From assembly GCA_026706025.1 (NCBI GenBank), contig JAPOZO010000084.1, positions 1 through 64,000 of the forward strand: 64,000 nt of DNA, given 5' to 3'. A model generated the notes under the pieces. It searched no databases, had not been told where the DNA came from, and saw nothing but the letters and a program-made list of their open reading frames with translations. Every line of letters begins with the position of its first letter. Positions within the stretch are counted from its first letter, which is position 1. The position numbers and the translations under genes were made by a program. This stretch comes from Candidatus Poribacteria bacterium (GTDB lineage: Bacteria; Poribacteria; WGA-4E; WGA-3G). Below are positions 34,252 through 43,921 of the stretch, piece by piece.

Positions 34252-35115
34252 CTACTTTGCGTCCATTGTGCATCGGAAACCTCGGATGAGTGAACCGGGG
34301 TTTCCACCGAGACGGCTTGCACATCGCGTGAAGTCGTGGTTCTCAGCCCAACCGCCGCCTCTTAGCACATGTCCATCACCGGTTTCGGGTCCCGTCGGAT
34401 TGATATTGGTCGGTGCGTTACGGTAGTAATTCGGATCATACCAATCTGCTACCCATTCCCAGAGATTGCCTGCCATGTCGTGTGCGCCGTAAGGACTCGC
34501 GCCTTGTGGAAACTGTCCGACCGGTGCGGTCTCTTTATACCCATCCCTCAGCCCTGTGCCGTCGTTTCCGCTGAGCTTTGTGTCGTCCCATTCATTGCCC
34601 CAGGGCCAGTGCCGTCCATCTGTGCCGCGTGCGGCTTTTTCCCATTCCGCCTCGGTGGGTAACCTTTTGCCTGCCCAGTTCGCATAGGCGGCGGCATCTT
34701 CCCAAGTTAAGACAGCCGCAGGGAAATCCGGCGCATTATGCGGTTCGTAGTCTAAATAGTGCTTAGGTTCATGACCGGTCTCAGCAAGGAATTGCTTATA
34801 CTGCTGATTTGTCACCTCAAATTTGTCAATATAGAAGGCATCGACATAGACGGTGCGTTGCGGACGCTCATTATCATACCGGACGGGATCGCGGAGTGGA
34901 AAGAATTCTTTGAAATCTTCCATATCTTCATCAGTGGTTCCCATGAGGAATTCACCCGCGGGCACATAAACCATGACTGCGTTATCTTTGGCGGTTGTGA
35001 TCGTTTTGAGGGGCAGGGTACCAACAAGCGGTGACTCTATAGGGTCGTGGCAGGCAAGTACCAATAAAGCGAGGATGAAGAGTGTAAACAGGTAACTGAG
35101 TTTGCTAAATTTCAT
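34252..35115 (-). CDS. FGE/SUMF1-domain lipoprotein
   Basis: The 287-residue protein has a lipoprotein signal (FTLFILALLVLAC). The formylglycine-generating-enzyme fold follows: VYVPAGEFLMGT, DAFYIDKFEVTNQQY, ANWAGKRLPTEAEWEKAARG, GAHDMAGNLWEWVADWY and HVLRGGGW...GFRC. The two copper-binding catalytic cysteines of true sulfatase-activating enzymes are not in the expected GGSxxC...C positions: GGGWAENHDFTRCAS has only the structural one. It is therefore more likely a binding or structural member of the family than an oxidase. Confidence 0.88.
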   Translation of the reverse strand: MKFSKLSYLFTLFILALLVLACHDPIESPLVGTLPLKTITTAKDNAVMVYVPAGEFLMGTTDEDMEDFKEFFPLRDPVRYDNERPQRTVYVDAFYIDKFEVTNQQYKQFLAETGHEPKHYLDYEPHNAPDFPAAVLTWEDAAAYANWAGKRLPTEAEWEKAARGTDGRHWPWGNEWDDTKLSGNDGTGLRDGYKETAPVGQFPQGASPYGAHDMAGNLWEWVADWYDPNYYRNAPTNINPTGPETGDGHVLRGGGWAENHDFTRCASRLGGNPGSLIRGFRCTMDAK

Positions 35116-35218: not shown

Positions 35219-36022
35219 CTACCGGTCAGCTTTCAAGGCACCCCATGTAGTGGAGATCTTGCCAGCGGGTTCAACCGGTGTTGTCGACATGAGCCAGATG
35301 ATAATTTCAGCAGCGACAGCACCCTTTGGCTCGGTGCCACCTGCGGTCTGTATCACAGGAATGAGTCTACCGAGGTTTCCATCGCGGACGATAATCGGAT
35401 CGGCACGGGTGCCGGAATCGTTTTGTGCGAGGGAGACTTCGACTTCCCAATCGCCATCGAGTTCATCAACGTGGAACGGACGATCGGACTGGATATCGGG
35501 CAAACTCGGTGAGATGGATTTACCTTCATCGGTAACGTTACATGGGGTATTATCGTCCCACATAGTGATACCCTCAATATCCATCATATTCTGTAAACCG
35601 CCGACCTCGTTTCTGCCGCCTAAGCCCCAGAACATGTAATCGGCGTGGTTAATAAATGCATCGCCATCGGTGGTTTCAATGAAAGTCTCACCAATAGAAC
35701 CTTCCGGTTGCGCGTTACCATCCGGATAGAGGGTTGGTGGAAGATCACCGTAAAGGACACAGACATCCAAGCCTTGGTCGCCGGTGACATCTTTCATCCA
35801 ATCGGCTAAGGCATCCATATCGCCATCACTGTCGAGCCAGAAGTTAGAGATCCCGGCATCATTGAGCATATCGACACAGATCTGTGCCTGTTCATCGGCA
35901 GCCCCTTTGTCGATCCATTGTGTGGTTCCGGTGTAGATAGCGACTTCACCGGCGGCAAGGACGGGTGCTAAAGGGAGTGCCATTAACGCAATGAGCGTTA
36001 GTGAGAGAAAAATTGTACGCAT
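35219..36022 (-). CDS. Secreted hypothetical protein with C-terminal WGxLK tail
   Basis: A perfect AGGAGG precedes the ATG. The 267-residue protein has a signal peptide ending near PVLAAG. The body (VAIYTGTTQWIDKG, DVCVLYGDLPPTLYP, YMFWGLGGRNEVGGLQNMMD, SDRPFHVDELDGDWEVEV) is clearly paralogous to the protein encoded six bases upstream. The fold resembles a flavodoxin-like or ThuA-like domain only loosely. It ends KISTTWGALKADR, a tail shared with three other exported proteins of this window. Function is unknown. Confidence 0.75.
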   Translation of the reverse strand: MRTIFLSLTLIALMALPLAPVLAAGEVAIYTGTTQWIDKGAADEQAQICVDMLNDAGISNFWLDSDGDMDALADWMKDVTGDQGLDVCVLYGDLPPTLYPDGNAQPEGSIGETFIETTDGDAFINHADYMFWGLGGRNEVGGLQNMMDIEGITMWDDNTPCNVTDEGKSISPSLPDIQSDRPFHVDELDGDWEVEVSLAQNDSGTRADPIIVRDGNLGRLIPVIQTAGGTEPKGAVAAEIIIWLMSTTPVEPAGKISTTWGALKADR

Positions 36023-36028
36023 TAAGCG

Positions 36029-36862
36029 TTACCTCCTGGTTTTAATATCCCCCCATACGGTAGGGAGTTTATCTTGCGGGTCGACGTCAAGTGCGCCCAC
36101 AGCTTCAACATAGTAATTGAGGATAATTTCGGAAATGACTAAACCTTTCGGGTCTGCTTGACCAGCAGTTTGGTAAACTTGGATGAGTCGTCCATTCGTC
36201 TTTGTATTATGGACGATACACGGATCGCAACGGTTCGCACCTTTGCCTTTTCCGGTTTCTGTCGCGAATGCAACTTCCAAGACCCAATCGCCATCAAGTT
36301 GGTCAAGGTGGAAAGGACGATCAGTAGCGTAGTCTTTCAAAGTCGGCGTGAGGTCTTTCCCTTCCGCCGTCACTTTCATCGCGGTATTGTCATCCCATTG
36401 AACGATGTCTGGGATGTCCATCATGTTTTGGAGCCCATTGGCTTCATTCCTGCCTCCTACGCCCCAGAAAAAATAGTCGGCACTGTTTGAGAAGGTATTG
36501 CCAGCATCAAGGAATTCCTCAGCAAGCGTCTCTTTCTTCTTATCTTTACCAACATCATAAATTTCAACGGGAACATCACCGAACATCACAATGATGTGAT
36601 GACCGTTATCAACGGCGTGATCTTTCGTCCAGGCTTCGACCTCTTTCGCGGGACCGTGAAGGAGGACTTCACCGATGCCGTTCTTTCCTTTGATCTCTTC
36701 TGCGAGAATTTCGGCTTCTTTCTTTGCGGACCCTTGGTCAATCCACTGCGTTGTGTCTGTGTAGATGAAAACATCTACTTTATTCGCGGCATCGACTGTA
36801 GGTACCGAGAATACGAGAACTGCGGCGCATAAAACGCCTGTGACAATCATAGATAGTCTCAT
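36029..36862 (-). CDS. Secreted hypothetical protein, paralog with C-terminal WGxIK tail
   Basis: The start ATG follows AGGAGA. The 277-residue protein has a signal peptide (MRLSMIVTGVLCAAVLVFSV...DAAN). It shares the ordered blocks IYTDTTQWIDQGSA, IVMFGDVPVEIYD, YFFWGVGGRNEANGLQNMMD and DRPFHLDQLDGDW with the downstream gene, so they arose by tandem duplication. An added stretch NRCDPCIVHN gives two extra cysteines. The C-terminus is KLPTVWGDIKTRR. The pair forms an operon with a six-base gap. Confidence 0.75.
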   Translation of the reverse strand: MRLSMIVTGVLCAAVLVFSVPTVDAANKVDVFIYTDTTQWIDQGSAKKEAEILAEEIKGKNGIGEVLLHGPAKEVEAWTKDHAVDNGHHIIVMFGDVPVEIYDVGKDKKKETLAEEFLDAGNTFSNSADYFFWGVGGRNEANGLQNMMDIPDIVQWDDNTAMKVTAEGKDLTPTLKDYATDRPFHLDQLDGDWVLEVAFATETGKGKGANRCDPCIVHNTKTNGRLIQVYQTAGQADPKGLVISEIILNYYVEAVGALDVDPQDKLPTVWGDIKTRR

Positions 36863-37083
36863 AAGAATAGTCTCCTATATCTTTTCGTGTGAAACACGGA
36901 CATTGCATAGAATATCCTGTAGTTTGATACACCTATAATGCTAAACGATGTCAACGCATTTTTGTTGCAAAGTTCATACGTTTTGCATGTTTTCATCGAT
37001 TACTATTGTTTATAATACTTTTTTCTTAAAAATTTGTCAAGTAAATAATTTGTTTTTTTAGAAAATTTCGGTTTTCTTTTACA

Positions 37084-37217
37084 GAATTTACGCAATGGAC
37101 GTTCATCCGTACTATGTTCCACAGGGTCTCTGGGTTCCCTGCGTGCGTTCAGGTTCGGACGGACACAAAGGTTTCCGAAGTTCATCCATCCGAACAGCAT
37201 CCTGATACGTAAGTCCT
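37084..37217. repeat. Degenerate element with TTACGCA-type inverted ends
   Basis: GAATTTACGCA at 37084-37094 and TACGTAAGTCC at 37207-37217 pair at eight of eleven positions. The ends match the consensus of the 31413 and 59668 elements, and the interior is unrelated and non-coding. Confidence 0.35.
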
Positions 37218-37268
37218 ATTTCAGTTATCAGTTGTCAACAATTAGCAAGTGTGTTTAGCAAAATTGAC

Positions 37269-37298
37269 TGTAGCCTCAATATGGAGATCGAGGCTACA
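37269..37298. terminator. Hairpin downstream of the third WG-tail gene
   Basis: TGTAGCCTC at 37269-37277 pairs perfectly with GAGGCTACA at 37290-37298. It lies 30 bases past the stop of the leftward gene ending at 37328. Confidence 0.5.
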
Positions 37299-37327
37299 AA
37301 TTAACGGAAAGTTCCAATGTTGAAGGA

Positions 37328-38122
37328 CTACTGAAGTGATTTTAATCGACCCCATACAACGCTCACCTTACCGGTTGGATCCACCGCTTTTGCGGTCGCA
37401 AAACGATTTGAAATGAGTTCTGCGTATTCCGTAGCGATCTGATCATTTGGTGGTATGGCTGTTCCACAACACGAGGTATGGAAGTTGATAAACCACCCCT
37501 TCATGTCTTTTGTTTGGTAAGCGATTGGATCTGCATTTACGCCGTCGTCGGCATAACTCTCATACTTAAAATCGTTCGCCTTCAACACAGCGAGACCTGA
37601 TGCACGATTTGAACTCCACTTTTTGAGAGAAGGTATGTACTCCTTCCCAAGATCCGTCGGGCTGACTTGCGAAACCGTGCCATTTGTGACTGTAGCACCA
37701 AACACACTCTGCTGCCCGGCACCGGCAGCCGTAACACGTGCCCCTTTATCCCAATAATAGTAGAAGGCGTAATCGCCGATGAATCCACCGATGCCGCCTC
37801 CCCTTAACCATGTATAAACTAAGTCTTTCTTGCCTTCCTTCTTAAATATTGTCCCTGGGGTATTCCCTTGCGTGATGATATAGATACCCTGTGGGTTCGC
37901 CTCCATATATGCCGCTAACTCGTCGCTATCCACTATTTCAGCAGTTAACTTTCTATCCTCAAGTTCTTCTACGATCATTTCTGCTAACTGACTCGGGTTC
38001 GGGACAGCTAAGCCGCCACCGTTTTCAACAGCTGCGTCATAAAACACAGCGACATCCTGTCCAAATGTGTAGCTCGTGCAAATTAGCACGAGAACTGATG
38101 CGAAACAAAATACCCTTTTCAT
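37328..38122 (-). CDS. Secreted hypothetical protein with C-terminal WGxLK tail (divergent family)
   Basis: AGGGGGA precedes the ATG. The 264-residue protein has a signal peptide (MKRVFCFASVLVLICTSYTFG). The body (VAVFYDAAVENGGGL, EMIVEELEDRKLTAEIVDSDE, YIITQGNTPGTIF, NFHTSCCGTAIPPNDQ) suggests an alpha/beta Rossmann-like domain similar to a ThuA-like/glutamine-amidotransferase-like fold, but this is a guess. It is not clearly homologous to the pair at 35219-36862 in its middle. Yet it ends KVSVVWGRLKSLQ, the same tail. Its own promoter lies at 38185-38213. Confidence 0.7.
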   Translation of the reverse strand: MKRVFCFASVLVLICTSYTFGQDVAVFYDAAVENGGGLAVPNPSQLAEMIVEELEDRKLTAEIVDSDELAAYMEANPQGIYIITQGNTPGTIFKKEGKKDLVYTWLRGGGIGGFIGDYAFYYYWDKGARVTAAGAGQQSVFGATVTNGTVSQVSPTDLGKEYIPSLKKWSSNRASGLAVLKANDFKYESYADDGVNADPIAYQTKDMKGWFINFHTSCCGTAIPPNDQIATEYAELISNRFATAKAVDPTGKVSVVWGRLKSLQ

Positions 38123-38437
38123 TTCCGTGTCCCCCTAATTTGCTGTTTCAAGCTGATTCGTTATCCAATCTTATCATCGAGTTCAGTATAACACGGTTAA
38201 ACAGAAATGTCAAGAAAAATGGAAATCTTTGCGTATTGACTGCTGACCGCTGACGGAAACCGATTCGTCTGAACTGGGATTTATCGGATTGAAGGATTTT
38301 CAGGAATTGGAGGTGTTTTTTGAATGGAAATTGTGCTTGCAAAAAATTAACTTTTCTTCTCAGAGATATGATAAAATTGCTCTATTCGAGAACAGTTAAC
38401 CTCTATATCAACCTTCACTTAAGAGTGTCACGAGAAA
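38123..38437. other. Divergent intergenic region with a promoter
   Basis: This 315-base gap separates divergent genes. It holds the leftward promoter at 38185-38213 and a GGGATTTATCGGATTGAAGG string near 38277 that resembles dispersed spacer repeats of other genomes. No coding frame was seen. Confidence 0.5.
38185..38213 (-). promoter_or_regulatory. Consensus sigma70 promoter of the secreted WG-tail gene
   Basis: On the minus strand TTGACA (38213-38208), exactly 17 bases, then TATACT (38190-38185). The gene starts at 38122, giving a leader of about 55 bases. Confidence 0.75.
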
Positions 38438-39391
38438 ATGTCTACTAATATTCTACAAAAACATATCCAAAAGATGAAACGCTTACGAGTAGATAGGGCA
38501 CACGGAGCAGCACCTAATAAGCCCATTCTCTTGTTAGCCATCGTTGAACTGATTGAGCAAGGACAGATTCGTGAAAATAAAGTCTCACCATCTCCAGATT
38601 TGTTTGAGATTTTCATGAAATATTGGTCAATAGTGACTGACCGAAAACCCAACCTCGCCCTACCATTTTTTCATTTAAAAAGTGAAGGGTTCTGGCACCT
38701 CCAAGCAAATGCTGGATACGAAACAGCATTAAAAGTTGCCACCCAAATTAAAACGGTCTCTCGCCTTCGTGAGATTGTTTCATCCGCAAGTTTTGATGAT
38801 GAGCTTTTCCTCTTACTTACGAATACCCATGACCGAGAAGTAATCCGTCAAACCCTTATAGATACCTATTTCACAGATTTTAAGGCAGATATCGAAAGTC
38901 TTATAACTGAAGGACAACATATTGATGCGTACAGACAGGCACTACTGCGGCAAGTCAAACAAACATTTTCATCTTTACAACCGTTGGCACCAACAGAAAC
39001 AGATAATCCGATTCGCACCGCAGGTTTCCGTCAAGCGATCATGCGAATTTACGATTACACTTGTGCAGTTTGTCAATTGTATGTTCTAACACTGGATGGG
39101 GAGAGCGTAACTGAAGCTGCCCACATCATCCCGTTCAAGGTTTCAGGAAACAATGATGTCCGGAATGGAATTTCTCTTTGCAGGCTGCATCACTGGGCGT
39201 TTGACAATGGCTTGATTTCTTTCGACAAGAACTATGAAGTGATTGTCTCAGAACTTATGATTGAACGTGGACCAACAGAGTGGCTGCTAACGACCTTGCG
39301 TGGTAAGTCTATATGGTTGCCTGCAGACGAAGAATACCATCCTGCTCAAGATGCCTTGGCATGGCATCGTGAGAAAATTTTCAGACGATAA
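38438..39391 (+). CDS. HNH endonuclease with N-terminal sulfur-binding-like domain (type IV restriction candidate)
   Basis: The 317-residue protein has two parts. Residues 10-110 carry RAHGAAPNKPILLLAIVELI, LALPFFHLKSEGFWHLQ and nearby residues, the pattern of the sulfur-binding domain that recognises phosphorothioated DNA in SprMcrA/ScoMcrA-type restriction enzymes. Residues 200-270 form an HNH nuclease: CAVCQ, EAAHIIPF and NGISLCRLHHWAFDNGLIS supply the metal and catalytic histidines. No dnd modification genes are nearby, consistent with a stand-alone enzyme that cuts foreign modified DNA. The domain call is from remembered motif resemblance. Confidence 0.8.
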   Translation: MSTNILQKHIQKMKRLRVDRAHGAAPNKPILLLAIVELIEQGQIRENKVSPSPDLFEIFMKYWSIVTDRKPNLALPFFHLKSEGFWHLQANAGYETALKVATQIKTVSRLREIVSSASFDDELFLLLTNTHDREVIRQTLIDTYFTDFKADIESLITEGQHIDAYRQALLRQVKQTFSSLQPLAPTETDNPIRTAGFRQAIMRIYDYTCAVCQLYVLTLDGESVTEAAHIIPFKVSGNNDVRNGISLCRLHHWAFDNGLISFDKNYEVIVSELMIERGPTEWLLTTLRGKSIWLPADEEYHPAQDALAWHREKIFRR

Positions 39392-39507
39392 CCTAATCCG
39401 TTGCGCGTGCGATGGACGTGATTTTTCGCTTGCATTGCAAGTTCGTTTCGTCTAAACTCATACAGAGGCATTCAGTTTTCAGCAGTCAGCAAAGATCAGA
39501 AAGAATC

Positions 39508-39522
39508 GGGGTTAGAAACCCC
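39508..39522. repeat. GGGGTT/AACCCC hairpin in a spacer
   Basis: GGGGTT at 39508-39513 pairs with AACCCC at 39517-39522 around AGA, followed by TCCCACAGG. It is a short REP-like unit in the spacer ahead of the three dehydrogenase copies; the terminator at 43084 and the GACGAG...CTCGTC hairpin near 40692 are similar in style. Confidence 0.4.
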
Positions 39523-39596
39523 TCCCACAGGTGTTACGCGGCGCGATTACAAAGCGCGTCTACCCAATAAGGATCTATAGATTAGGAGGTAAGCGT

Positions 39597-40685
39597 ATGA
39601 CGATACGAGTCGGTATTGTGGGTGCGGGTGGTATCTCACGTGCACACCAGCGGACTTATACGGCAGTAGGCGGTTTCGAGATTGTTGCGGTCTGCGACAT
39701 CATCAAGAGTAAGGCAAACGAAGCTGCCGATAAGTGGGGTGTCCCAAGGAAACACGTCTTCACCAGCTACAACAAGATGCTTGAGATGGACGAAATTGAT
39801 ACGGTCAGCGTTTGCACTTACAACCAAGGCCATCGCCGTCCAACGGTCGCAGCGTTGAATGCTGGTAAGCATGTCTTTTGTGAGAAACCGATGGCAGCGA
39901 CGCTCCCTGATGCGACCGCAATGGTGCGCGCCGCGAAAGCGTCGGGCAAAATCTTGCAAATCGGTATCCACAGCACCTTTAATCCGAGACTCCAATTCGC
40001 TAAGAAGTTGATCGATTCAGGACTGCTCGGCGACATCTATTATTCTGAATCTACAGGAGGTAGTCGACGCAGGAATCCGGGACGTACATTCATCTACAAA
40101 AAGACCGCAGGTGCCGGCGCAATCGTAGATGTCGGTGTCTACAATATGCACGATTCGTTGTATGCGATGGGGTATCCAAAACCAGTGCGGGTCTCCGCGA
40201 TTACCGAGGATTGCATCTCCCAGCAAGATCCGCAATTTAAGGGTATCATGGACGTTGAAGAGTTCGGTGTCGCATGGGTCCGGTTTGACAATGGCGGTGT
40301 GATGGTATTCAAAATCTCTTGGGTAGTGCATCAGGATTCGCTCGGTCCGAGTTTTTGTCTCGGTAAAGAAGCAGGTATTTCTCTGAACGAACCCGTTGTC
40401 TATGCCGATGCTTATACAAATGACCTGAAGAAACTTGTCAAATCCGAAGGACTCACCGCAGAAGCGAACCCACCGGAAGGGATGACGACGATCCAGTTCT
40501 CTGGATTCCCAGAGGTCGATGTCTGGCAAGCACAGATAACGGCGTTCCGTGAAGCCGTCAAAGTGGACGCACCATCGCCGATACTCCCAGAGGGTGTCCT
40601 ACTCACGAATGTAATTATGGATGGTATTTTCCGTTCACATGCAGCGGGGAAAGAGGTTGCAGTGAGAGTGCCGGAGGTTGAATAG
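39597..40685 (+). CDS. Gfo/Idh/MocA-family oxidoreductase, tandem copy 1
   Basis: The start is the ATG at 39597, seven bases after AGGAGG; longer in-frame starts lack a site. The 362-residue protein has the Rossmann motif VGIVGAGGISRAH (residues 5-17), the EKPMA motif at 96-100 and a C-terminal domain with GAGAIVDVGVYNMHDSLYAMGYP. Members oxidise or reduce sugars, inositols and related polyols with NAD(P). Copies 1 and 2 differ at only two of the first 123 residues, so they are recent duplicates or undergo gene conversion. Confidence 0.9.
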   Translation: MTIRVGIVGAGGISRAHQRTYTAVGGFEIVAVCDIIKSKANEAADKWGVPRKHVFTSYNKMLEMDEIDTVSVCTYNQGHRRPTVAALNAGKHVFCEKPMAATLPDATAMVRAAKASGKILQIGIHSTFNPRLQFAKKLIDSGLLGDIYYSESTGGSRRRNPGRTFIYKKTAGAGAIVDVGVYNMHDSLYAMGYPKPVRVSAITEDCISQQDPQFKGIMDVEEFGVAWVRFDNGGVMVFKISWVVHQDSLGPSFCLGKEAGISLNEPVVYADAYTNDLKKLVKSEGLTAEANPPEGMTTIQFSGFPEVDVWQAQITAFREAVKVDAPSPILPEGVLLTNVIMDGIFRSHAAGKEVAVRVPEVE

Positions 40686-40756
40686 CCGTCAGTAGACGAG
40701 ATTGGAAACCTCGTCAGCAAAAGAGTGGACGTAAATTCTGATGAGGAGATAAGCGT

Positions 40757-41842
40757 ATGACAATTCGAGTCGGTATTGTGGGTACAGGTGGTATTTCACG
40801 GGCACACCATAGGACTTATACGGCAGTAGGCGGTTTCGAGATCGTTGCGGTCTGCGACATCATCAAAAGCAAGGCAAACGAGGCTGCCGATAAGTGGGGT
40901 GTCCCGAGGAAACACGTCTTCACCAGCTACAACAAGATGCTTGAGATGGACGAAATTGATACGGTCAGTGTTTGCACTTACAACCAAGGCCATCGCCGTC
41001 CGACAGTGGCAGCCTTGAACGCCGGTAAACACGTCTTTTGTGAGAAACCGATGGCAGCGACGCTCCCTGATGCGACCGCAATGGTACGCGCCGCGAAAGC
41101 GTCGGGCAAAATCTTGCAGATCGGTCTCAAAAGTGCCTTTGATCCGAGACTCCAATTCGCTAAAAAAGTGATTGACAAAGGACTGCTCGGCGACATCTAT
41201 TATTCTGAATCTACAGGCTGCAGGCGACGCGGGAATCCTGGACGAACGTTCATCTACAAAAGGACCGCGGGGGCGGGTGCAATCGTAGACATCGGTGTCT
41301 ATAATATGCACAACTCGTTGTATGCGATGGGGTATCCGAAACCGGTACGCGTCTCTGCCATCACAGAGGATTACATCTCGCAGCAGGATCCAAGGTTTAA
41401 GGGTATCATGGACGTTGAAGAGTTCGGTGTCGCATGGGTCCGGTTTGACAATGGCGGTGTGATGGTGTTCAAAATCTCTTGGGCGATCCATCAAGATTCG
41501 CTCGGTCCGAGTTTCTGCCTCGGTAAAGAAATGGGTATCTCTCTGAATGGACCGGTTGTCTATGCCGATGCCTATACCGATGAACTTAAGAAACTCGTCA
41601 AATCCGAAGGACTCACCGCAGAAGCGAACCCACCCGAGGGTATGACGACGGTCCGGTTATCAGGGTTTCCTGAGGTCAATGTCTGGGAAGCACAGATGAC
41701 AGCGTTCCGTGAAGCCGTCAAAGCGGATGAACCGTCGCTGCTACCACCAGAAGGCGTTCTGCTGACGAACGTGATTATGGACGGTATCTTCCGTTCACAT
41801 GCAGCAGGAAAAGAGGTTGCAGTGAGAGTGCCGGAGATTTAG
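40757..41842 (+). CDS. Gfo/Idh/MocA-family oxidoreductase, tandem copy 2
   Basis: Its ATG follows AGGAGA. The 361-residue protein matches copy 1 almost exactly through residue 123 (differences at 10 and 18 only), then diverges in patches: IGLKSAFDPRLQFAKKVIDKG against IGIHSTFNPRLQFAKKLIDSG. The cofactor motif and EKPM are intact. The substrate-facing half changes most, which suggests duplication followed by specialisation. The 71-base gap to copy 1 has a GACGAG...CTCGTC hairpin. Confidence 0.9.
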   Translation: MTIRVGIVGTGGISRAHHRTYTAVGGFEIVAVCDIIKSKANEAADKWGVPRKHVFTSYNKMLEMDEIDTVSVCTYNQGHRRPTVAALNAGKHVFCEKPMAATLPDATAMVRAAKASGKILQIGLKSAFDPRLQFAKKVIDKGLLGDIYYSESTGCRRRGNPGRTFIYKRTAGAGAIVDIGVYNMHNSLYAMGYPKPVRVSAITEDYISQQDPRFKGIMDVEEFGVAWVRFDNGGVMVFKISWAIHQDSLGPSFCLGKEMGISLNGPVVYADAYTDELKKLVKSEGLTAEANPPEGMTTVRLSGFPEVNVWEAQMTAFREAVKADEPSLLPPEGVLLTNVIMDGIFRSHAAGKEVAVRVPEI

Positions 41843-41947
41843 GTATAGCAGTCAGTCATCAGCAGTTAGTTGTCAGTGGAGACGGTATATTTTAGTGTCT
41901 ACATAATTTTATTTTTGACCATAAATTCATTATGAGGAGATAAGGGT

Positions 41948-43033
41948 ATGACTGTCAAGGTTGGTATTATTGGTACAGGTGGCATTTCACGTGCGCACCG
42001 GAGCACATACGAGAAAGTCGGTGGTTTCGAGATCATCGCGGTCTGCGACATCATTAAAAGCAAGGCGAACCAAGCCGCTGATGAGTGGGGTGTTCCGAGA
42101 AAGAACGCTTTTTCAAGTTACAACAAAATGCTTGAAATGGATGAACTCGATGGGGTGAGTGTCTGCACTTACAATCAGGGACATCGGCGACCAACGGTCG
42201 CAGCGTTGAACGCCGGTAAACATGTTCTCTGTGAAAAACCGATGGCGGCGACACTCTCAGATGCGACCGCGATGGTGCGGGCAGCGAAGGCATCAGGCAA
42301 AATCTTACAAATCGGTCTCAATCCTACGTTTGATCCGAGGATCCAATTCATCAGAAAAGCGTTCGACGCGGGATTGTTCGGCGATATCTACTATTCTGAG
42401 TCTGCAGGCTGCAGGCGACGCGGGAATCCTGGACATACATTCATCTATAAAAAGACAGCGGGGGCGGGGGCAACCGTGGATATCGGTGTCTACAATATGC
42501 ACGCTTCGCTGTATGCGATGGGGTATCCGAAACCGGTGCGTGTCTCCGCGATTACCGAGGATTATATCTCGCAGCAGGATCCGAGATTTAAAGGGATCAT
42601 GGATGTCGAAGAATTCGGTGCAGCGTGGGTGCGGTTTGACAATGGTGGTGTGATGGTGTTCAAAATCTCTTGGGCGGTGCATCAGGACTCACTCGGCGGC
42701 AACTTCCATCTTGGGACGAAAGCGGGTTTCTCGTTGGGTGGACCGGTTATTTATGCCGATGCGTATGCCGGTGAACTCAAGAAGTTTGTCGAATCGGAGG
42801 GATTAACAGCGGAACCGAACCCACCAGAAGGTATGACGACGATCCAGTTCTCAGGGTTCCCGCAGTCCGATAACTGGGCGGCACAGATGATCGCGTTCCG
42901 TGAAGCTGTCAAAGCGGACGCGCCGTCACCGATACCGCCAGAGGGTGTTCTGCTCACGAATGTGATTATGGACGGTATTTTCCGTTCACATGCAGCGGGG
43001 AAAGAGGTTGCGGTGAGGGTGCCGAAGATTTAG
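41948..43033 (+). CDS. Gfo/Idh/MocA-family oxidoreductase, tandem copy 3
   Basis: AGGAGA precedes the ATG. The 361-residue protein has VGIIGTGGISRAH and EKPMAATLSDATAMVRAAKASG. It is more diverged from copies 1 and 2 than they are from each other, especially in the region SLGGNFHLGTKAGFSLGG. All active-site regions appear intact. It is the last gene of the tandem array, followed by a strong intrinsic terminator at 43084-43109. Confidence 0.9.
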   Translation: MTVKVGIIGTGGISRAHRSTYEKVGGFEIIAVCDIIKSKANQAADEWGVPRKNAFSSYNKMLEMDELDGVSVCTYNQGHRRPTVAALNAGKHVLCEKPMAATLSDATAMVRAAKASGKILQIGLNPTFDPRIQFIRKAFDAGLFGDIYYSESAGCRRRGNPGHTFIYKKTAGAGATVDIGVYNMHASLYAMGYPKPVRVSAITEDYISQQDPRFKGIMDVEEFGAAWVRFDNGGVMVFKISWAVHQDSLGGNFHLGTKAGFSLGGPVIYADAYAGELKKFVESEGLTAEPNPPEGMTTIQFSGFPQSDNWAAQMIAFREAVKADAPSPIPPEGVLLTNVIMDGIFRSHAAGKEVAVRVPKI

Positions 43034-43083
43034 GTATTCTTCGGTGTGGTTCGGAACCCGCACAAATGATAATATATTTTGCT

Positions 43084-43109
43084 GGCGGGGTTTGCAACCC
43101 CGCCTTTTT
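43084..43109 (+). terminator. Rho-independent terminator after the tandem dehydrogenases
   Basis: GGCGGGGTT at 43084-43092, loop TGC, AACCCCGCC at 43096-43104, then five T (43105-43109). It is a textbook intrinsic terminator for the rightward array. Confidence 0.88.
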
Positions 43110-43183
43110 CATACGTGACTCAGACAAACTTAGGAATCGCAACCGGGAGGTCGCTCCTAATAGGCGTTCCTCAATATACTTCT

Positions 43184-43921
43184 CTAAAAATCCTTCAGAT
43201 CTCCCCATGTTGTGGAAAGCTTCGTCCCAGGCATTACTGACAATCTTCCCTTGTCTGGAATCCCTTTACCAGTGATGATAATATTATCAAATCTCGCCGT
43301 ATAACTTGTAAGGCCAAAGCCTACACCTCCTGTAAGAAAGCGATCCAAATTACCTGCTTTCTGATTAATGACTTCTCGACCACCACGCCAGAAAATGAAG
43401 TCCTGTCCAGTCTCGACGACTTTTGTGTCATTTACCCAAAAAATGAAGGCACCTCCCTTAACACTTAACTTCAGGGTATACCAAGTGTCTAGTCTCAAAG
43501 GTGGATGAGCTTCAAGGTAGAGGATGACTGTGACGAGGTCGTGGAAATCGCCGACACGACAATTTGCGTTTGATTCAGGGAACAAATCGTCACCAATCTC
43601 GCAGAACATTAGCCAAGTTTCATTGATCCGCGCTGCAATCACTAAACTGCCGCGACCATGTTTTTGAAGTGGTTTGATCCTAGCTTCGACGGTATAATTT
43701 TGCCATGTCTCGTCTCCAATCGTGAGTAAACGTGTCCATCCATCAACACTTATTGCGTGAAGTTCACGATCAATTACCTCCCAAGAGCCCGGTGCAGCAT
43801 CGTTTCGGATCAGTTCCTGCCACTCTTCTAAATCTGCGTCATCAAAGGTTTCAATAAACGTTCCTGCCAACACAGAGAACGTGAAAAAAAACAGAGCGCA
43901 TCCAACAATTGTTAATTTCAT
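43184..43921 (-). CDS. Secreted concanavalin/LamG-like (DUF1080-type) protein with C-terminal WGxLK tail
   Basis: AAAGGA precedes the ATG. The 245-residue protein has a signal peptide (MKLTIVGCALFFFTFSVLAG). A beta-sandwich domain follows: FIETFDDADLEEWQE, GSWEVIDRELHA, YTVEARIKPLQKHGRGSLVIAARI, LDTWYTLKLSVKGGAFIFWVND and GGVGFGLTSYTARFDNIIITG. This is the family-wide layout of 3-keto-disaccharide hydrolase-like/LamG domains, probably carbohydrate-binding. It ends KLSTTWGDLKDF, the same tail as three unrelated exported proteins upstream, which marks the tail as a separate module. Confidence 0.8.
   Translation of the reverse strand: MKLTIVGCALFFFTFSVLAGTFIETFDDADLEEWQELIRNDAAPGSWEVIDRELHAISVDGWTRLLTIGDETWQNYTVEARIKPLQKHGRGSLVIAARINETWLMFCEIGDDLFPESNANCRVGDFHDLVTVILYLEAHPPLRLDTWYTLKLSVKGGAFIFWVNDTKVVETGQDFIFWRGGREVINQKAGNLDRFLTGGVGFGLTSYTARFDNIIITGKGIPDKGRLSVMPGTKLSTTWGDLKDF

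Follow-up and report, generated by a model that had tools for sequence, protein, structure and literature searches.

A short C-terminal tail as a probable sorting signal of non-lipidated exported proteins in Candidatus Poribacteria

Poribacteria are dominant uncultured symbionts of sponges. Many of their exported proteins end in a short, hydrophilic tail, which very probably constitutes a new C-terminal sorting signal of Candidatus Poribacteria for non-lipidated exported proteins, judging from its sequence and distribution. The best single guess at its route, to which we give about an even chance, is that the tail would be read by a T9SS-like translocon, a suggestion based on analogy with known T9SS signals. 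Among signals of its class, the tail may be the shortest. Since it is present on a large share of exported proteins, the tail can be used to predict which of them may be exposed to the sponge; with a hidden Markov model built on it, thousands of proteins currently described as hypothetical would be re-annotated.

The window analyzed here is a stretch of 64,000 nucleotides from a Candidatus Poribacteria genome, in which four genes carry the tail (Table 1). The preliminary description of this DNA had reported the C-termini of these four proteins, which were recovered exactly as written, and N-terminal signal peptides, which are present on all four. It had further treated the first two genes as paralogues and the fourth body as separate, both of which hold; the start codon of gene 36029-36862 is at either 36862 or 36850. 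In contrast, the claim that the body of the third protein is unrelated to the first two proved wrong. The 37328 body can be joined to the 35219-type bodies through a homologue elsewhere in the genome (23% identity, E 2e-7), making it a distant relative within the ThuA-like family, and consequently the window shows two body families and not three. Elsewhere in the window, the motif does not occur in the last 25 residues of any real gene. The structure model of the 43184 protein (mean pLDDT 81) has a concanavalin-like body mostly above 85, while tail residues 229–245 fall below 50 and are disordered. In the model of the 35219 protein the tail forms a short helix at approximately 55–62, the lowest confidence apart from the signal peptide.

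Table 1. Tail-bearing genes of the window and the positions of their C-terminal tags.
Feature	Position	Strand	Basis
C-terminal tag of gene 35219-36022 (last 20 aa, TPVEPAGKISTTWGALKADR)	35222..35281	-	sequence
Sec-exported protein, ThuA-like body + tag, 267 aa	35219..36022	-	Foldseek 4jqs ThuA-like, E 9e-5
C-terminal tag of gene 36029-36862 (LDVDPQDKLPTVWGDIKTRR)	36032..36091	-	sequence
Sec-exported paralogue of 35219 (44% identity), ThuA-like body + tag	36029..36862	-	
C-terminal tag of gene 37328-38122 (KAVDPTGKVSVVWGRLKSLQ)	37331..37390	-	sequence
Sec-exported, distant ThuA-like family member + tag	37328..38122	-	link via homologue elsewhere in genome
C-terminal tag of gene 43184-43921 (RLSVMPGTKLSTTWGDLKDF)	43187..43246	-	low-confidence, unpacked in structure model
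Sec-exported concanavalin-like protein (PF06439 3keto-disac_hyd) + tag	43184..43921	-	

The tail is approximately 17 residues long, contains one Trp, and has the consensus V-[ED]-P-x-G-K-L-[AT]-T-T-W-[GA]-x-[LI]-K-x(1-10)-stop. Conservation is highest at Val1 (93%), the first Lys (97%), the Trp (100%), and the final Lys (100%). The intervening sites consist of E/D, P, x, and G/D before the first Lys; L (78%), A/T, T (82%), and T (73%) before the Trp; and G or A (80% and 19%, respectively), x, and L/I before the final Lys, which is followed by 1 to 10 mainly polar or basic residues. The motif is strictly terminal, with no internal copies in 68 strict carriers. The W, K, G, and V positions are invariant or nearly so in tails across unrelated bodies and genera, the bodies themselves being as little as ~23% identical. 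No Pfam or NCBIfam model matches the tail, and the literature searched contained no description of a matching signal.

The abundance of the tail was assessed using both a strict DNA pattern and a weight matrix. The strict pattern (K-[LIVMF]-xxx-W-G-x-[LIVMF]-K) gives 127 matches in the 6.27-Mb genome compared to 1 in the reversed control. The weight matrix, which was built from tails and is looser in that it also captures W-A versions, identifies a C-terminal tail in 29 of the 590 called genes in 784 kb of unselected sequence. All 29 carriers score above 29 bits, no gene scores from 6 to 29 bits, and shuffled C-termini yield zero matches. Together, the comparison with the reversed control and the weight-matrix scores exclude chance as the source of the matches. 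By extrapolation, the whole genome would encode about 230 carriers. Within the phylum, the strict pattern is present in 84/84 genomes at 7 to 135 copies each (control 0 to 4), while 109 genomes from outside the phylum, one per family, contain 0 to 5 matches, which is the control level. Two genuine tails (loci L093 and L098) occur in a genome placed outside the phylum (G153), one of them near a transposase-like ORF. These reflect either mis-binning or transfer; among public sequences, the closest relatives are for the most part Poribacteria contigs.

The identity of the carriers was examined in a gene set comprising the 784 kb of contiguous unselected sequence and 24 selected regions. The tail is confined to exported proteins and is absent from cytosolic ones: in the unselected sample, all 19 strict carriers have a signal peptide, compared to 237/590 genes overall (Fisher p = 2e-8; p = 1e-6 with called starts only). 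The signal-peptide caller is crude and over-calls, for example on Gfo/Idh/MocA enzymes, so this enrichment is weakened and not inflated. In the wider set, five carriers lack a called signal peptide; four of these have one at another in-frame start and the fifth is a fragment with an in-frame stop, such that every full-length carrier checked has a signal peptide. Of the signal-peptide genes in this unselected sample, about one in eight bears the tail. Lipoproteins are excluded from this group, as the tail is found on 0/30 lipoproteins compared to 88/354 non-lipidated signal-peptide proteins (p = 4e-4, in a gene set that includes some regions picked around tails).

The bodies to which the tail is attached are diverse. 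Among 67 carriers, 32 contain LamG and 12 contain 3-keto-disaccharide hydrolase-like bodies; others contain Kelch and PD40 propellers, CBM9, PA14, F5/8 C, or members of the ThuA-like family. This variety indicates that the tail is not a single homologous domain, and about a dozen BLAST-separate body clusters are present genome-wide, removing the concern that the tail is limited to one homologous family.

Evidence that the tail is a separable module comes from homologues of the 35219 body, which were sought in 58 genomes, with a subset read. All 49 non-lipidated single-domain copies end in the tail, these being single-domain Sec proteins not classed by script as tail-less lipoproteins. Every one of the 21 single-domain copies without the tail is a lipoprotein with a lipobox cysteine, including two that the script labelled SPI but whose sequences read FMSC and FGNC. 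A further seven copies are multidomain, several of them including cohesin, dockerin, or LRR parts, and have a T9SS type A domain at the C-terminus in place of the tail; the type A ends of the three that were scanned exceed the TIGR04183 cut-off. The tail starts where the lipoprotein fold ends. The family tree requires only 2–3 changes per label, so the swap is clean but represents few evolutionary events. A second swap involves a PVELSHF-type domain: the Poribacteria version finishes with the tail (...GAAGKLTSTWGELKSSNE), whereas the version in Dyadobacter jiangsuensis continues into an end that, judged by eye, is type A-like. The modularity proposed in the preliminary description is thus borne out, both by the disordered tail in the 43184 model and by its replacement with a type A domain or lipoprotein anchor in homologues. 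Neither of the two outcomes that it had named as refuting was observed, and its interpretation of the tail as a possible sorting or anchoring signal is supported.

The tail resembles C-terminal sorting signals in its logic, and it fails a defining feature of each known signal tested. PEP-CTERM, LPXTG, GlyGly-CTERM, and MYXO-CTERM are likewise short C-terminal domains on otherwise unrelated exported proteins. These signals consist of a transmembrane helix and a basic tail and are processed by a membrane enzyme. The Poribacteria tail, by contrast, lacks a hydrophobic segment, as had been noted at the outset; no transmembrane segment is found past the signal peptide in 93 carriers. Encapsulation peptides and dockerins likewise target proteins through a short C-terminal peptide or module; however, encapsulation peptides direct cytosolic cargo and dockerins are calcium-binding domains. 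The phylum-restricted distribution of the tail has a counterpart in MYXO-CTERM (PMC11980579).

The closest similarity is to the T9SS type A domain (TIGR04183 / PF18962), which also lies at the very C-terminal end of otherwise unrelated Sec-exported proteins, occurs dozens of times per genome, and has a conserved Lys near its end. Furthermore, the type A domain occurs on the same bodies as the tail, and homologues of SprA, PorV, and PorU are encoded in the same genomes. In contrast to the 70–100 residues of the type A domain, the tail has only ~17, with no β-sandwich and the consensus GKLATTWGxLK. Neither TIGR04183 nor PF18962 matches the window proteins, and PF18962 is absent from the 25 families listed for 67 carriers. 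Reduced-length signals are known to work in Prevotella intermedia, although these T9SS domains, shortened to 40–55 residues, still contain motifs B, D, and E and three strands (PMC11969387). In one P. gingivalis T9SS substrate, only the last 22 residues are essential (PMC11969387).

Homologues of SprA, PorV, and PorU co-occur with the tail in the same genomes, but gene-neighbour analysis revealed no family consistently located beside tail genes. Tandem ABC-2-type permease genes are interleaved with tail genes at L016 and L041 (C52:303385-318407; C3:20806-27540). The ABC-2 permease was rejected as a partner, its signal being inflated by tandem arrays and by regions chosen around tails.

Candidate components of a T9SS-like machinery are found throughout the phylum. 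Most genomes encode a SprA-like ORF of ~2200 aa, with a SprA_N match in 78/84. The SprA/Sov-like ORF in the genome containing the window (G000:C63:137048-143680, loci L023 and L024; 2210 aa) matches TIGR04189 with E 1e-47 and 162 bits, against an equivalog cut-off of 200. A scan of viral contigs with SprA gave no relative. The PorV family NF033709 is over cut-off in 81/81 genomes at 8 to 24 copies each (16 in the same genome as the window), and several of these genes adjoin type A domain proteins. A C25 peptidase is present in 83/84 genomes, mostly in two or three copies. One PorU-like C25 peptidase with a type A domain lies beside a PorV-family gene (G000:C63:93578-100305, L021 and L022) and matches the PorU model NF033707 with E 8e-117 and 391 bits (cut-off 420). 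Classical type A domains are present in 84/84 genomes, with ~26 in the genome of the window. The GldM motor (TIGR03517) is over cut-off in 0/81 genomes, with a best E of 0.0042, a search that a diverged motor could escape; on this result the system is not a canonical T9SS. A 2014 study of Poribacteria found type A domains and no structural genes of the Por system (PMC3909097). The present data place SprA-, PorV-, and PorU-like genes in nearly every genome of the phylum, alongside a second, commoner C-terminal signal.

These observations suggest a possible mechanism. First, the carrier, synthesized with a standard cleavable signal peptide, would cross the inner membrane via Sec. Next, in the periplasm, the unstructured V-[ED]-P-x-G-K-L-x-T-T-W-G-x-L-K end would be recognized by a partner common to all carriers. 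Finally, this partner would move the folded carrier over the outer membrane or hold it at the surface. The likeliest partner is the T9SS-like machinery of the phylum, comprising a putative SprA translocon, PorV-family shuttles, and a PorU-like C25 sortase, such that a tail of ~17 residues would replace the function of the 70–100 residue type A domain. Within the F. johnsoniae translocon, the type A domain is bound to SprA and to loops of PorV, and PorV is contacted by a near-invariant lysine close to the end of the domain (PMC10994853). Different signals can be read by specialized shuttles (PMC12618676), and by analogy the tail is a possible minimal signal for one of the many PorV-like shuttles. 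Against this route, the tail matches no T9SS domain model, and the PorV genes in this genome pair with type A proteins. This pairing, together with the failure to detect the motor, holds the T9SS route at about an even chance. Additionally, the ~26 classical type A domains in the genome indicate that T9SS substrates need not use the tail.

A tentative alternative, and a less probable one, is that the tail acts as a docking peptide, with no part played by T9SS. Carriers would be soluble in the periplasm or already secreted, and would bind one common scaffold, such as an S-layer, sheath, or outer-membrane or polysaccharide-associated receptor, which localizes them and does not export them. A short, hydrophilic tail with one Trp that is unstructured in one model is consistent with docking, as is its alternation with lipid anchoring on the same body, and many carriers are single carbohydrate-binding-like domains, as in docking systems. 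However, carriers have no common partner gene alongside, and homologous bodies have a known export signal at the same position as the tail.

It is unlikely that the tail serves a distinct, so far undescribed route of export or attachment that is unrelated to T9SS and has its own outer-membrane channel or transpeptidase. In favor of such a route, the tail is far commoner than the type A domain (127 strict matches compared to 26 domain matches) and the two have no model in common; yet no candidate machinery was found, and SprA, PorV, and PorU homologues are already present phylum-wide. Similarly doubtful is a phylum-specific, non-T9SS pathway for export or surface attachment that would have its own receptor for a 17-residue Trp-Gly tail on well over 100 proteins per genome. 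Least probable by far is that the tail is a relic with no sorting function, spread by expanding gene families: 52 of 93 carriers adjoin another carrier, indicative of tandem duplication, but the tail is strictly terminal and missing from lipoproteins and cytosolic proteins, and this reading is already contradicted by the retention of W, K, G, and V on non-homologous bodies and across genera.

Several additional features were noted near tail genes. In the window, a lipoprotein with an FGE-sulfatase domain (34252-35115) adjoins the tail cluster and has weak similarity to GldK. Its GldK score is far below cut-off and other families score better, so it was rejected as PorK and is not given that name. 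Three closely similar Gfo/Idh/MocA oxidoreductase genes lie in a row between the tail genes of the window (39597-43033), and this family is also frequent near tail genes elsewhere. Finally, two tail genes (L038:15564-16235 and L052:7812-8640) are interrupted by a frameshift or an in-frame stop, downstream of which the tail can still be read.
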